DNA from: an uncultured delta proteobacterium
GTDB taxonomy: Bacteria > Myxococcota_A > UBA9160 > JAFDET01
NCBI GenBank assembly: GCA_947260035.1
Contig: CAMYOO010000005.1
Coordinates: 1-36,531, forward strand
Direction of reading: 5' to 3'
Length of the DNA stretch: 36,531 nt
The first letter of the stretch is position 1; each line of letters starts with the position of its first letter. The position numbers and the translations under genes were made by a program. Shown piece by piece: positions 6,537 through 20,264 of the stretch. The notes beneath the pieces were generated by a model, which was given only the letters and a program-made list of their open reading frames with translations, was not told where the DNA came from and did no database searches.

Positions 6537-7286
6537 TCAGCCCAGCATGGCCCGCATCCGGTCGGGCCGGTTGGTGAACAGGCCGTCCACGCCCCAGTCC
6601 AGGAGCTGGCGCATGCGCTCCGGCGCATCCACCGTGAACGGGTAGACGGCGAGCCCGGCCGCGTGGATCTCGTCCACCAGCTCGCGGGTCACCAGGGGCG
6701 CCTCCGGATTGACCGCCTCGGCGCCCACCGCCCGAGCGCGCGAGAGGATGTCGATCGGGTAGCGCCGCGAGATCAGCAGCGCGATGCGCGCCTCCGGCGC
6801 GTTCGCCCGCAGCCGCCCCAACACGGGATCGTAGAACGACGAGAAGAGCGTCCCGTCCAGCAGGCCGCGTTCAGAGACTGCGTCGATGGCCAACGGCTCC
6901 AGACCTGCGTACTCGGCATCGACTCCGCGCTTGATCTCCAGGTTGAAGGGAATCGCCGACCCGAAGCGGTCCAGGACCTCGTCCAGGGTGGGAACGCGCT
7001 GCCCATCGCCGGCGTTCAGGGCGCGCACCTCGGAAAGGCTGGCGCCGGCGATCTCGCCCTCTCCCCCCAGCCCCTCGAGCTCGGCGTCGTGGGTCACGAC
7101 CAGCGCGCCGTCACGGGTGCGGTGCAGGTCGATCTCGATCATGTCCGCGCGCTGCTCGATCGCCAGTGCATAGGCGGACGGGGTGTTCTCGGGGCGGTAG
7201 GCGGATGAGCCTCGGTGGGCGATTACGAGGGGCTTCGAGTTCGAGGAGGCGGCGGGGTGGGCGGTGTCGGGGGGCTTCGGGTTCAC
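6537..7286 (-). CDS. Glycerophosphodiester phosphodiesterase (GDPD family)
   Basis: 249 aa; KPLVIAHRGSSAYRPENTPSAYALAIEQRADMIEIDLHRTRDGALVVTHDAEL is the canonical GDPD N-terminus. GTG start. Confidence 0.93.
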   Translation of the reverse strand: MNPKPPDTAHPAASSNSKPLVIAHRGSSAYRPENTPSAYALAIEQRADMIEIDLHRTRDGALVVTHDAELEGLGGEGEIAGASLSEVRALNAGDGQRVPTLDEVLDRFGSAIPFNLEIKRGVDAEYAGLEPLAIDAVSERGLLDGTLFSSFYDPVLGRLRANAPEARIALLISRRYPIDILSRARAVGAEAVNPEAPLVTRELVDEIHAAGLAVYPFTVDAPERMRQLLDWGVDGLFTNRPDRMRAMLG

Positions 7287-14771: not shown

Positions 14772-14820
14772 GGCAAGTCACCCGGCGGCCACAGGGGAAG
14801 TCACCCCGCGGCTACAGCCT
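14772..14820. repeat. Imperfect 23-bp tandem duplication of the 3' end of the ABC subunit 2 gene
   Basis: caagtcacccggcggccacaggg followed immediately by gaagtcaccccgcggctacagcc, 18/23 identical. The second copy holds the real GTAGCCGCGGGGTGA (VAAG-stop). Confidence 0.6.
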
Positions 14821-16651
14821 CTCCCGCCTCCTGGGCGCCGTACTGGAGCTGGTAGAGGTGGTGATAGACCCCTCGGGCCTCGAGGAGCTCCTGGTGGCGG
14901 CCCTGCTCCACCACGCGGCCCTTGTGGAGCACGTAGATGCGGTCCACGTCCTGGATCGTGGACAGCCGATGCGCGATGGCGATGGCGGTCTTGCCCTCCA
15001 TCAGGGAGTGGATTCCCTGCTGGATGGCGACCTCGGTCTCGGTATCGATGGAGCTGGTGGCCTCGTCCAGCACCAGGACGTGCGCTCCGTGGGCCACGGC
15101 CCGGGCGAAGGACAGCAGCTGGCGCTGGCCGGTGGAGAGGTCCGTACCGCGCTCGCGCAGCTCCGTCTGGTAGCCGTCGGGCAGCTCCTCGAGGAAGCGG
15201 TGGGCCTCCACGCTGCGTGCCGCCAGCTCCAGGTCCGCCTGGGAGAGGTCGTCGCGCCCCAACCCGATGTTCTCGGCCACGCTGCCGCTGAACACGAACA
15301 CGTCCTGCAGGACCATGGCCACACGCCGGCGCAGCTCGGCCTGGGGCAGGTCGCGCAGATCCACGCCGTCGACGCGGATGGTCCCGCGCTGGGGCTCGTA
15401 CAGCCGGGTCAGCAGCTTGATGATCGAGGTCTTGCCGGCTCCGGTGTGGCCCACCAGCGCCACCTTCTCGCCCGGCGTTACGCAGAACGACACATCCTCC
15501 AGGATCCAGTCCTCGCCGCGGTACGCGAACCAGACGTTCTCGAAGGCGACCTCGCCCTTGCGCGCGGGGTCGCCCGCGGCGGGCTCCTCCACCCGGTCCA
15601 CCACCGCCGGCTCGATGTCCATGAGCTGGAAGATGCGCTCGGCGCTGGCCATGGAGGACTGCATCACCGAGTACTTGGCCGACAGGTCGCGCAGCGGCAT
15701 GAAGAAACGCCGCAGGTAGTCGAAGAAGCGGTACATGATGCCGACGCTGGCGAGTCCCGCGCCGGCGCCCAGCACGATGGCGAAAGTCAGGTTCTGCGCG
15801 ATTTCCACCACGGAGAAGAGCGCCGCCTCCCAACGGATCGAGCGCTGCCACGCGTCTCGGTGCAGGGAGTTCATCTCATCGAAGTCGCGGAAGTTGCGGC
15901 GCTCCCGGGTGAAGAGCTGCACCACCTTCATCCCGGTGATGGTCTCCTGGATCATGGTGTTGATGCGCGCGATGCGGATCCGCGTCTCGCGGAACGCGTC
16001 CCGCACGCGCATGCGGAAGATCACCGCGCACACGATCAGCACCGGAACCACCAGGAAGGTCCACAGGGCCAGCTTGGCGTTCAGGGCGAAGAGCACGCTG
16101 GCGATGATGAGCATCTTGATCACGTCGGTGACCAGCGTGACGATGCCCGACGAGAACATCTCGGTGATGTTCTCCACGTCGTTGGTGGCGCGCGTCACCA
16201 GCCGACCCACCGGGTAGGAATCGAAGAAGCCCAGGTGCAGCTTCTGGATCTGCCCGAAGACATCGCGGCGCAGGTCGCGCATGGCGTGCTGCCCGGTCCA
16301 GGCCATCACGTAGAGGTTCAGGAACTGGAAGCCCGCCAGGAGCACCACCGTGCACAGGTACAGTACAGTCAGCCACAGGATCGGCGGGAAGCCACCGGGC
16401 GCGTCCAGCAGCGCGTTCAGACCGCTGCCCGCGGAGGCCACCTCGCCGCCGAAGACCCGGTCGAGGCCCGTGGCGATGATCCAGGCTGGCGCCAGCTCGA
16501 GCGCCGTGAGCGGGAAGACCAGCGACAGCGAGAGGGTCACCTGCCAGGTGTAGGGCCGGATGTAGGGCCACAGGCGCGTGAGCAGGCGCGAGTCGTAGGC
16601 CTTGCCCAGCGCCTCCTCGTCGTGGAACGGATCGAGGGGAGGCGCGCTCAC
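14801..16651 (-). CDS. ABC exporter subunit with fused TMD-NBD, canonical Walker-B Glu, variant signature LSTGQ
   Basis: GTG start at 16651 (VSAPPLDPFHDEEALGKAYDSRLLTRLWPYIRPYTWQ...). Walker A GHTGAGKTS, signature LSTGQRQLLSFARA, Walker B LVLDEATSSID. The ORF track merges this with upstream out-of-gene sequence (14801..18598). GTGA overlap with the preceding gene. Confidence 0.93.
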   Translation of the reverse strand: MSAPPLDPFHDEEALGKAYDSRLLTRLWPYIRPYTWQVTLSLSLVFPLTALELAPAWIIATGLDRVFGGEVASAGSGLNALLDAPGGFPPILWLTVLYLCTVVLLAGFQFLNLYVMAWTGQHAMRDLRRDVFGQIQKLHLGFFDSYPVGRLVTRATNDVENITEMFSSGIVTLVTDVIKMLIIASVLFALNAKLALWTFLVVPVLIVCAVIFRMRVRDAFRETRIRIARINTMIQETITGMKVVQLFTRERRNFRDFDEMNSLHRDAWQRSIRWEAALFSVVEIAQNLTFAIVLGAGAGLASVGIMYRFFDYLRRFFMPLRDLSAKYSVMQSSMASAERIFQLMDIEPAVVDRVEEPAAGDPARKGEVAFENVWFAYRGEDWILEDVSFCVTPGEKVALVGHTGAGKTSIIKLLTRLYEPQRGTIRVDGVDLRDLPQAELRRRVAMVLQDVFVFSGSVAENIGLGRDDLSQADLELAARSVEAHRFLEELPDGYQTELRERGTDLSTGQRQLLSFARAVAHGAHVLVLDEATSSIDTETEVAIQQGIHSLMEGKTAIAIAHRLSTIQDVDRIYVLHKGRVVEQGRHQELLEARGVYHHLYQLQYGAQEAGEAVAAG

Positions 16652-18447
16652 GCCACGGCCTCGTCCAGCGCGTCTTCCAGCGCCTGCTGGCGGGCCAGGC
16701 GTGCGTAGAAGCCGCCGTGGACCAGCAGCTCCTTGTGGGTGCCGCGCTCGCTGATCGCACCGTCGGCGAGCACGATGATCTGGTCGCACTCGCGCACGCT
16801 GGAGATGCGGTGCGAGATCACCACCACCGTGCGCCCGGCGAAGACCTCGGCCAGCTCGCGCTGGATGGCCTCCTCGGTAGCGGCGTCCACGCTGGACAGC
16901 GTGTCGTCCAGGATCAGGATGCCGGGCTCCATGGCCAGGGCACGAGCCAGGGCCGCTCGCTGACGCTGGCCACCGGACAGCATCACCCCGCGCTCGCCCA
17001 CCACCGTGGCCAGCCCGTGGGGCAGCTCGGAGAGGTCCTTGGCCAGCTGGGCGCGCTCCACGGCCAGCGCCACGCGCCCCGAGTCGGTTTCCGGCAGGCC
17101 GAAGGCCACGTTGTCGGCGAGGCTCATGGAGAACAGGAACGAGTCCTGGGGCACCATCGCGATACCGGCGCGCAGGGTCATGAGCGGAAGCCGGTTCAGG
17201 TCGACGCCGTCGATCAAGACGCAGCCGTCGTCCACCTCGTAGAGCCGCGGAATGACCGAGGCCAGGGTGCTCTTGCCGGACCCCACTGGCCCCACCACAC
17301 CCAGGGTCGACCCGGCCGGCACGTGGAACGAGACGTCGCGCAGCGCGGGTTCGCGATCGGCGCCTGGGTACGCGAAGGTCAGGTTCCGGAACTCGATCTC
17401 GCCGCGCAGGGCGTCCACGTCCGCGAGATCGCCGCGGTCGGCGATGGACGGCTCGGTGGCCAGCACCTCGTCGATGCGCTGCATGGCGGCCGCGCCGCGC
17501 TGCACCAGCGAGAAGACCCAGCCCATGATGAACGTCGGGAAGGTCAGGTTCCAGATGTAGACGGCGAACATCATGAACTCGCCCTTGGTGAGCGTGCCCT
17601 GGGCGATCTTGTGGCCGCCCACCAGCAGCACCAGGCCCATGCCCAGGGCCGGCAGCAGCCCCACGATGGCAGGCATCGCCCCGTTGACCCGCACCAGACC
17701 CATGTGGCGGTTGAAGAGCTCCTGGTTGGCGCGCGCGAAGCGCTTCGCCGTCACCCGTTCCATGGCGTAGGTCTTCACCACGGCGATCCCGGAGATCGTC
17801 TCCTGCAGGTGGTTGGAGAGGTCCGCCAGGCCCTCCTGCACGGCGATGTTGGCCCGGAACATGAGGCGGCCGAAGGCCCGCGCGATGAACACGAACAGGA
17901 AGTACGGCGCCACCACCAGCAGCGTCAGCAGCGGGTCGAAGAACGCCATGGCGATCAGCACGCCCACCAGCATCACCGGGGTCTGCACCACCGAGAGCAG
18001 GCCCGGCCCCAGCATCAGCCGCACCGAGTTCAGGTCGTTCACGCAGCGGCTCATGATGTCGCCGGTACGCCAGCCGAAGTAGAAGGACTGCGGCAGGCGC
18101 TGGAGATGGGCGAAGAGATCGTTGCGGATCTCGTACTCCACCTCGCGGCCGGCGCTGAAGACCAGCTCGCGCGAGAAGTAGCGCAGCGCCCCGGACAGCA
18201 GCGCCACGATCCCGATCCACAGGGCCTGGCGCGCCAGATCCGGGCCGCTCTGCTCGCCGATCGCGTCGACGCCGCGCCCCACCATGATGGGGATCGCCAC
18301 GAAGCAGCCCACGTAGGCCAGGGTGATGACGGCCCAGATCCCGTAGTAGCGGCCGTTGCGGCGGATGTAGACCGAGAGCCGCGCGATCGCGGCGCGAACG
18401 TCGCTGCGGCCCTCGCGGGCGGCGGCGATGTCGGAAGCGGCGCTCAC
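16648..18447 (-). CDS. ABC exporter subunit with fused TMD-NBD, degenerate Walker-B (LDDTLSSVD)
   Basis: 599 aa, GTG start. Walker A GPVGSGKST, intact signature MLSGGQRQRAALARALA, Walker B ILILDDTLSSVDAAT with Asp in place of the catalytic Glu. Confidence 0.95.
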   Translation of the reverse strand: MSAASDIAAAREGRSDVRAAIARLSVYIRRNGRYYGIWAVITLAYVGCFVAIPIMVGRGVDAIGEQSGPDLARQALWIGIVALLSGALRYFSRELVFSAGREVEYEIRNDLFAHLQRLPQSFYFGWRTGDIMSRCVNDLNSVRLMLGPGLLSVVQTPVMLVGVLIAMAFFDPLLTLLVVAPYFLFVFIARAFGRLMFRANIAVQEGLADLSNHLQETISGIAVVKTYAMERVTAKRFARANQELFNRHMGLVRVNGAMPAIVGLLPALGMGLVLLVGGHKIAQGTLTKGEFMMFAVYIWNLTFPTFIMGWVFSLVQRGAAAMQRIDEVLATEPSIADRGDLADVDALRGEIEFRNLTFAYPGADREPALRDVSFHVPAGSTLGVVGPVGSGKSTLASVIPRLYEVDDGCVLIDGVDLNRLPLMTLRAGIAMVPQDSFLFSMSLADNVAFGLPETDSGRVALAVERAQLAKDLSELPHGLATVVGERGVMLSGGQRQRAALARALAMEPGILILDDTLSSVDAATEEAIQRELAEVFAGRTVVVISHRISSVRECDQIIVLADGAISERGTHKELLVHGGFYARLARQQALEDALDEAVA

Positions 18448-19109
18448 CCGGCGTACCAGCCGGCCAGACGCTGCCGGTCGAGCCCCAGGCGCCAGCCCAA
18501 CAGGGCCAGCCAGTTGCGCAGCATCTGGCGGAAGACGCGGCCCTGGTAGCGCCGCGCCGAGGTCTCCACGGCCAGGGGCAGCCGCACCAGCCGGCCATGC
18601 CGTTTCATCTCTCGCGCCAGGTCCAGGTCCTCCATGATCGGCGCCTGGGGAACGCCGCCCATCGCATCCAGGACGTCCCGGCGCACGAAGACCGCCTGGT
18701 CACCATACGGCAGCCCGAAGAGCGCGACCCGCAGCCGCGCCCCCCACTCCACGATCCGCAGTCCCGGCCCCGTCGCGTCGAACTTCAGCCGGAAGCAGCC
18801 GCCGGCCACCCCCGGATCGCGGCAGGCCGACTCCAGCGCCTGGTCCCAACCCTCCGGCAGGCGGGTGTCCGCGTGCAGGAAGAGCAGAACCTCGCCGGCG
18901 GCCAACCGGCTGCCGGCCTCGAGCTGGCCGGCACGGCCCGGAGGCGCCTCCAGGAGCCGTGCGCCCGCTTCCACGGCCCGATGGGCCGTGGCGTCCCGGC
19001 TTCCGCCGTCCACCACCCAGACCTCTACATCCTGGGCGCGCGCGCTGGCGACCGCGGCTGCCACCGAGCCCTCTTCGTCGAGGCTGGGGATCACGACCGC
19101 AATCTTCAC
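18444..19109 (-). CDS. Family 2 glycosyltransferase resembling TIGR04283
   Basis: GTG start at 19109: VKIAVVIPSLDEEGSVAAAVASARAQDVEVWVVDGGSRDAT...GRAGQLEAGSRLAAGEVLLFLHADTRLP...GLPYGDQAVFVRRDVLDAMGGVPQAPIMEDLDLAREMKRHG. The ORF track extends too far upstream. Confidence 0.9.
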   Translation of the reverse strand: MKIAVVIPSLDEEGSVAAAVASARAQDVEVWVVDGGSRDATAHRAVEAGARLLEAPPGRAGQLEAGSRLAAGEVLLFLHADTRLPEGWDQALESACRDPGVAGGCFRLKFDATGPGLRIVEWGARLRVALFGLPYGDQAVFVRRDVLDAMGGVPQAPIMEDLDLAREMKRHGRLVRLPLAVETSARRYQGRVFRQMLRNWLALLGWRLGLDRQRLAGWYAG

Positions 19110-19115
19110 GGGCCG

Positions 19116-19121
19116 ACGGTA
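19116..19121 (-). promoter_or_regulatory. Candidate -10 element (TACCGT) of the glycosyltransferase/ABC operon
   Basis: TACCGT ends exactly 6 nt before the GTG start at 19109. No clear -35. Confidence 0.35.
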
Positions 19122-19127
19122 GCTGAT

Positions 19128-19157
19128 TTGACAGCGGGCCGACCCTTCCCGTATCCA
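19128..19157 (+). promoter_or_regulatory. Predicted sigma70-type promoter of purM
   Basis: TTGACA (19128-19133), 18-nt spacer, TATCCA (19152-19157), 6 nt before the GTG start at 19164. Confidence 0.6.
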
Positions 19158-19163
19158 TCGTCC

Positions 19164-20264
19164 GTGCCCCCCCGAAAGAAGCGCGACGCAGACGAGGGCT
19201 CCGCTCCCGCCTATGCACAGGCCGGGGTCGACCTGGACCACGACGAGGGCTTCGTCGATGAGATCCAGGAGATCGCGCGCTCGACGTTCCGGCCCGAGGT
19301 GCTCTCGAACATCGGGGGCTTCGCAGGCCTGTTCAAGACGCCCGATCGCTACACGGAGCCGGTCCTGGTGGCGGGCGCCGACGGCGTGGGAACCAAGCTG
19401 CTGCTGGCGGCGCGGGTCGGACGCTACGACACCGTGGGCATCGACTGCGTGGCGATGGTGGTGAACGACCTGGTGGTGCAAGGGGCCGAGCCGCTGGTCT
19501 TCCTGGACTACCTGGCCATGGGGGAGCACGACCCCGAGATCGCCGCCGAGGCCCTGCGCGGGCTGGCCGAGGGCTGCAAGCGCGCCGGCTGCGCCCTGCT
19601 CGGCGGCGAGACGGCCACCATGCCCGGCGTCTACCCCAAGGGCGAGCTGGAACTGGTGGGCTTCGGTGTGGGCGTGGTGGAGCGGGAACGGGTGATCGAC
19701 GGCTCGTCCATCCGCGTGGGCGACGTCATCATCGGCGTCGCCTCGGGCGGCCTGCACAGCAACGGCTTCTCCCTGGTGCGCTCCCTGGTGGACGAGGGGC
19801 TGGCCGCCGAGCGCTTCGGACTCTTCGACGAGGTGGACGAGCTCAACACCTCGCTGGCCAGCGCGCTGCTGTCTCCCACCCGCATCTACGTCAAGCCGGT
19901 CCTCAACCTGCTGCGCGACTTCGAGCTGCACGGCATCGTGCACGTCACCGGCGGCGGCTTCGAGGGCAACCTGCCGCGGGTGCTGCCCGAGGGCCTGTGC
20001 GCGCGGGTCGACCCCGAGAGCTGGCCGCGGCCCGGCATCTTCACCTGGATCCAGCGCCAGAAGGAGATCTCCGACGGCGAGATGCTGCGGGTGTTCAACT
20101 GCGGCGTCGGCCTGGTGGTCTTCGTCCCCGAGGAGCAGTCGGAAGACGTGGCCGATCGCCTACGCGCCTTGGGCGAGCGGCCCTACCGCATCGGCCGCGT
20201 CGAACGCCGCGACGACGGCGAGCCCGCGCTGATCTTCGAGCGCGGCGCCGCGATCCCCGACTGA
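19164..20264 (+). CDS. purM: Phosphoribosylformylglycinamidine cyclo-ligase (AIR synthetase)
   Basis: YAQAGVDLDHDEGFVDEI...IGGFAGLF...VAGADGVGTKLLLA...DCVAMVVNDLVVQGAEPLVFLDYLA...LLGGETATMPGVY...GLHSNGFSLVR...HVTGGGFEGNLPRVLP. GTG start at 19164; the ORF track starts too far upstream. Confidence 0.96.
   Translation: MPPRKKRDADEGSAPAYAQAGVDLDHDEGFVDEIQEIARSTFRPEVLSNIGGFAGLFKTPDRYTEPVLVAGADGVGTKLLLAARVGRYDTVGIDCVAMVVNDLVVQGAEPLVFLDYLAMGEHDPEIAAEALRGLAEGCKRAGCALLGGETATMPGVYPKGELELVGFGVGVVERERVIDGSSIRVGDVIIGVASGGLHSNGFSLVRSLVDEGLAAERFGLFDEVDELNTSLASALLSPTRIYVKPVLNLLRDFELHGIVHVTGGGFEGNLPRVLPEGLCARVDPESWPRPGIFTWIQRQKEISDGEMLRVFNCGVGLVVFVPEEQSEDVADRLRALGERPYRIGRVERRDDGEPALIFERGAAIPD

Follow-up and report, generated by a model that had tools for sequence, protein, structure and literature searches.

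Two predicted leaderless promoters, back to back between purM and a glycosyltransferase/ABC operon in an uncultured Myxococcota genome

In the DNA analysed here, a stretch of 36,531 nucleotides from an uncultured delta proteobacterium (hereafter the window), we found that the 54-bp gap between purM and an operon of glycosyltransferase (GT) and ABC-transporter genes is best read as the source of two divergent leaderless mRNAs, a reading that we consider very probable. The first-pass annotation had proposed such a pair, and the proposal is now supported by hexamers and spacings conserved on both sides of the gap and by a genome-wide peak of -10 elements. The gap appears to hold two separate promoters of the housekeeping-sigma type, which point apart, and each -10 is positioned such that RNA polymerase would start on the G of GTG, the exact +1 and the use of sigma-70 being predictions from this layout. 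In bacterial promoters +1 lies about seven bases past the -10 hexamer. On either strand that position is the first base of GTG; each mRNA would then begin with GUG and would be read without a Shine-Dalgarno (SD) sequence, so that the purM and GT/ABC mRNAs would both be translated from a 5'-terminal GTG without SD pairing. The elements, their spacing, the reading frame, the conservation, the gene specificity and a genome-wide -10 peak of leaderless type were all observed in the sequences, as described below.

The gap and its flanking genes

The features of the locus are collected in Table 1. The hexamers, the N18 spacer and both 6-nt spacings of the first-pass annotation proved exact in all coordinates on re-checking, and GGAG, GAGG and AGGA are absent at both starts, in agreement with its remark that no SD sequence is visible at either GTG. 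The bases between the -10 and the start codon are TCGTCC for purM (plus strand) and CGGCCC for GT (minus strand), and either strand thereby has C(-1)G(+1), a favourable initiator pair. The purM -10 departs from TANNNT. A -35 match for the GT promoter of the window, searched 16-18 nt from its -10, was not found. In most relatives the GT promoter is an extended -10, TGCTANNNT, the TG of which is gone in the window's family, and the GT promoter of the window, being without a -35 and having lost this TG, may thus be weak. A simple sigma-70 consensus scan of the window reported no promoter at these sites, because TATCCA is without the final T and the minus-strand promoter is without a -35. A bidirectional promoter with a shared -10 was also considered and was rejected, since the window has two separate -10s, at 19116-19121 and 19152-19157.

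Table 1. Coordinates of the intergenic region, promoter elements and flanking genes in the window.
Feature	Position	Strand	Remark
Intergenic region with two back-to-back promoters (predicted)	19110..19163	.	54 bp, read from the sequence
purM promoter, -35 TTGACA	19128..19133	+	TTGNC at the equivalent site in 50/56 relatives
purM promoter, spacer of 18 nt	19134-19151	+	Read from the sequence
purM promoter, -10 TATCCA	19152..19157	+	Ends 6 nt upstream of GTG
purM start codon GTG, predicted mRNA +1	19164..19166	+	In frame in 55/55 promoter-bearing relatives
GT promoter, -10 TACCGT	19116..19121 (19121-19116)	-	Ends 6 nt upstream of GTG
GT start codon GTG, predicted mRNA +1	19107..19109	-	GTG in 54/54 relatives with an aligned start
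purM, phosphoribosylformylglycinamidine cyclo-ligase	19164..20264	+	TIGR00878, 411.8 bits (cut-off 236.35)
TIGR04283-family glycosyltransferase (GT), first gene of the GT/ABC operon	18444..19109	-	TIGR04283, 218.9 bits (cut-off 182)
MsbA-like ABC transporter (permease plus ATPase)	16648..18447	-	Start overlaps the GT stop
Second ABC-transporter-like ORF, same run	14801..16651	-	Gene call; start overlaps the preceding stop

Both GTGs were picked by a gene caller that is free of motifs, a home-made dynamic-programming program that uses coding potential alone and that was also the source of gene starts outside the studied loci. We also considered that purM could be leadered, or could start elsewhere, at the in-frame TTG 19128 or farther upstream, with the GTG being internal. 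The purM frame is indeed open upstream to 18597 and includes this TTG, but the TTG belongs to the -35 hexamer, the gene caller settled on the GTG, and many relatives have either no in-frame start upstream of the purM GTG or a stop, so that we regard such a start as very improbable; an upstream TTG start was rejected on the upstream sequences of the relatives. That the TTG falls in frame follows from the promoter spanning 36 nt. As an in-frame pseudo-start, TTG 19128-19130 lies 12 codons upstream of the GTG, and many relatives have the like, which makes the -35 TTG of such promoters a trap for annotation, as an in-frame false start. Furthermore, PurM of the window carries a 20-residue extension (19164-19223) ahead of its GVDL core motif. 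Across the window and its relatives this N-terminal extension, measured from the promoter-anchored start to GVDL, varies from 15 to 96 residues, is rich in P, A, S, K and D, and is possibly a translated former leader; annotators should expect variable PurM N-terminal extensions to follow the promoter-anchored start.

Conservation at divergent and unlinked loci

Two samples of relatives were compared with the window. A PurM search of genome contigs gave 31 loci with GT divergent beside purM (sample 1), and the close PurM matches all come from uncultured metagenome-assembled genomes (MAGs), with titles mostly of Myxococcota or Deltaproteobacteria. Sample 2 comprised 91 genomes of the window's class, 80 of them with GT, and the divergent pair was kept in 56, spanning 11 families. 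Some genomes are shared by the two samples, and since the relatives are MAG assemblies with related loci, the counts given here do not represent independent events. One MAG, Meg19_46_Bin_213, holds two different purM/GT loci (L006 and L030, with PurM identities of 96% and 67%), probably through bin contamination.

The alignment of the gap in related genomes, which the first-pass annotation had put forward as a check, revealed that practically every relative has, for purM and GT alike, the hexamers and a spacing of 6-8 nt to an in-frame RTG, and nearly all 31 loci of sample 1 have the same -10/GTG layout. On the purM side, 55/56 junctions have a TAY -10-like element 6-8 nt upstream of an in-frame start (54 GTG, 1 ATG), with TTGNC at -35 as well in 50 of these 55 promoters, and each of those 50 motifs, searched blind to frame, led to a start that shares the frame of purM. 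C at -1 together with G at +1 was found in 45/55, and position -2 is often G. For GT, TANNNT lies 6-8 nt before the GTG in 53/54 loci (distance 6 in 40, 7 in 12 and 8 in one), while no TANNNT occurs at any other distance within 0-19 nt among these 54 loci, and the interiors of these gaps have a TANNNT background of 0.0015 per position. In profiles with one sequence per genus, the conserved columns cluster in two places, the purM -35/-10 block and the GT TGCTANNNT block. Across relatives the two starts are 54 to about 194 bp apart (one longer value, in G056, is an artefact of a mis-set GT start). Since gap length varies, the conserved quantity is the distance of each element to its own start codon. 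Each hexamer is degenerate when taken alone and the consensus scan was blank, as would be expected if the hexamers were chance matches in a GC-rich gap, but their recurrence at fixed spacing in 55/56 and 53/54 relatives despite the varying gap, against so low a background, leaves chance with a negligible probability, and the alignment refutes it. The conserved elements near the starts could in principle serve another factor.

The range of 6-8 nt between -10 and start among relatives, together with the frequent G at -2 on the purM side, would also be compatible with very short leaders of 1-5 nt, with the start of transcription slipping by a few bases and initiation still independent of SD; in particular, a leader of 1-3 nt is a possible alternative to strict leaderlessness. 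We consider such leaders quite unlikely, given that the window has a 6-nt spacing on either side and that, of the pyrimidine/purine pairs, C(-1)G(+1) is the best placed. In one relative, G086, purM appears to be leadered and of SD type. In this low-GC relative (L139/L027) purM looks SD-led from a TTG, and the old promoter still precedes a GTG, which opens a 14-codon ORF ending in TAA, either a leaderless leader ORF or the product of a frameshift.

As regards INDEPENDENCE of the two genes, family f10 mostly has purM and GT apart. Most purM genes of this family retain a TGCTATCAA-type box shortly upstream of an RTG start, and most GT genes retain a GCTAGAGT-type box ahead of GTG. Because the unlinked copies keep their boxes, the start-proximal -10 is a property of each gene and not of the pair, and co-regulation was rejected as the cause of conservation on the same ground. 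In the sister order (f12; L154, L164, L166-L169 and L173), TTGTCA and a CACYCT-like box were seen by eye before GT at similar distances, which suggests a diverged -10 consensus. Regarding the start codons, GT always has GTG in the divergent set, and purM has ATG in five f10 genomes and in G045. We make no strong claim on the constancy of GTG, given these ATG cases and an HDAC-like gene, described below, that almost always has ATG.

Overlap of the two promoters

As regards INTERFERENCE, just 6 bp separate the purM -35 from the GT -10 in the window and the promoter footprints overlap, so that two polymerases would be unlikely to bind together. The first-pass annotation had raised mutual interference, which these footprints make possible in the window; the overlap itself does not appear to be conserved, given the spread of gap lengths and the promoters kept by unlinked copies. 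A gap of 70 bp or less is found in 15/55 relatives (families f1, f4, f7, f8 and f10), the rest being larger, and interference therefore does not appear to be the reason for conservation. It may operate locally in the window, where the overlap is probably a by-product of compaction.

A stronger version of this idea is a regulated bidirectional switch, in which the overlapping promoters would be mutually exclusive and purM and GT/ABC would be expressed reciprocally. With the two starts of the window 54 bp apart the -35/-10 spans do overlap, interference has been documented at bidirectional promoters of E. coli (PMC12825309), and overlapping divergent promoters are known in EcoRV (PMC5333194). 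The window resembles the E. coli promoters in its divergent transcription from a short region and in the potential competition for RNA polymerase, but the latter share a -10 and have transcription start sites 10-23 bp apart (PMC12825309), unlike the window with its two -10s and predicted transcription start sites 55 bp apart. Moreover, short gaps are confined to the minority of relatives given above, and in most of family f10 purM and GT are unlinked and yet still of leaderless type. We regard the switch as unlikely, and we retain two separate, predicted leaderless starts as the preferred reading.

Leaderless initiation in the genome and in other bacteria

Many high-GC bacteria, among them Actinobacteria, Deinococcus-Thermus and some delta-proteobacteria, have been predicted to contain leaderless genes in which TANNNT precedes the start by about 12 bp; in the delta-proteobacteria, such genes were predicted in 8/33 genomes and make up 15.8% of genes on average (PMC3160421). 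The purM/GT case is like these in the element and its distance, in concerning first genes of operons, in the high-GC genome and in the coexistence of SD-led genes. It differs in belonging to an uncultured Myxococcota class, in having been traced gene by gene across families and in being known from sequence alone. In Deinococcus, promoters with a "-10 region adjacent to ORF" were tested experimentally and drive leaderless mRNA (PMC12340547). The -10 motif directly before the ORF and the risk of N-terminal mis-annotation are common to both, whereas purM of the window adds a strong TTGACA -35 and stands in another phylum. For leaderless initiation in mycobacteria, having ATG or GTG at the 5' end is both necessary and sufficient, and E. 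coli makes poor use of leaderless GTG (PMC4633059). The mycobacterial mRNAs share with our case the RTG-only starts, the free use of GTG and the lack of SD, and were established by experiment, in contrast to the sequence comparison used here. Given the poor use of leaderless GTG by E. coli, the leaderless GTG reading, if right, requires a tolerant host ribosome, and we infer that Myxococcota ribosomes would resemble mycobacterial ones in their use of leaderless GTG. The literature searched yielded no experimental work on leaderless genes in Myxococcota. The purM/GT pair is, as a prediction, a well-conserved new example of known leaderless expression and not a new mechanism.

A similar signal was found across the genome. 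In a sample of 435 kb of the window's own genome (about 400 kb plus the window), TANNNT precedes 23 of 176 first genes by 5-8 nt, compared with 3.9 expected from flanking positions. The peak was also present in G091 (14 versus 4.4 expected) and in G010 (5 versus 0.9 expected), the G040 sample being too small for this analysis, and it was not seen in beta/gamma-proteobacterial control loci processed identically (5 versus 7.4 expected). The row for Myxococcota relatives in this analysis is dominated by the purM/GT loci and is not independent of them. SD motifs precede 57 of the 176 first genes (the control stretch has 22), and the genome thereby mixes leaderless and SD modes. The leaderless-like starts of this genome and G091 are ATG or GTG, with TTG in 0/37.

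Two other genes of the class served as ortholog controls. An HDAC-like gene has a leaderless-type GATACCAT box 5-8 nt before its start in 27/30 class loci, 26 of the 27 with ATG, and is predicted to be another conserved leaderless gene; in the window's own species it falls outside the box definition used. There (C3, near 27244; loci L237-L266) this HDAC-like deacetylase gene is divergent to an NAD-epimerase-like gene, 34 bp apart. On the other hand, cysK has SD in 28/30 loci and no -10 box at leaderless distance. This pair of controls argues that the mode of initiation is gene-specific. Comparative evidence of this kind, clearer than a motif count, points to leaderless expression as a fixed, gene-specific trait across families of an uncultured Myxococcota class, and the trait would include GTG, a codon poorly used by E. 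coli in leaderless mRNAs. One could go further and suppose that the class fixes its initiation mode gene by gene, GT and, in most cases, purM being leaderless with GTG, the HDAC-like gene leaderless with ATG and cysK SD-led, and that compaction in the window's lineage then turned purM and GT into two mutually exclusive leaderless promoters linking purine synthesis to the GT/ABC operon; to this combined proposal we assign a low probability. Three other starts in the window, at 7286 (minus), 22487 (minus) and 34555 (plus), have TANNNT-type boxes 5-8 nt upstream and are likely leaderless as well.
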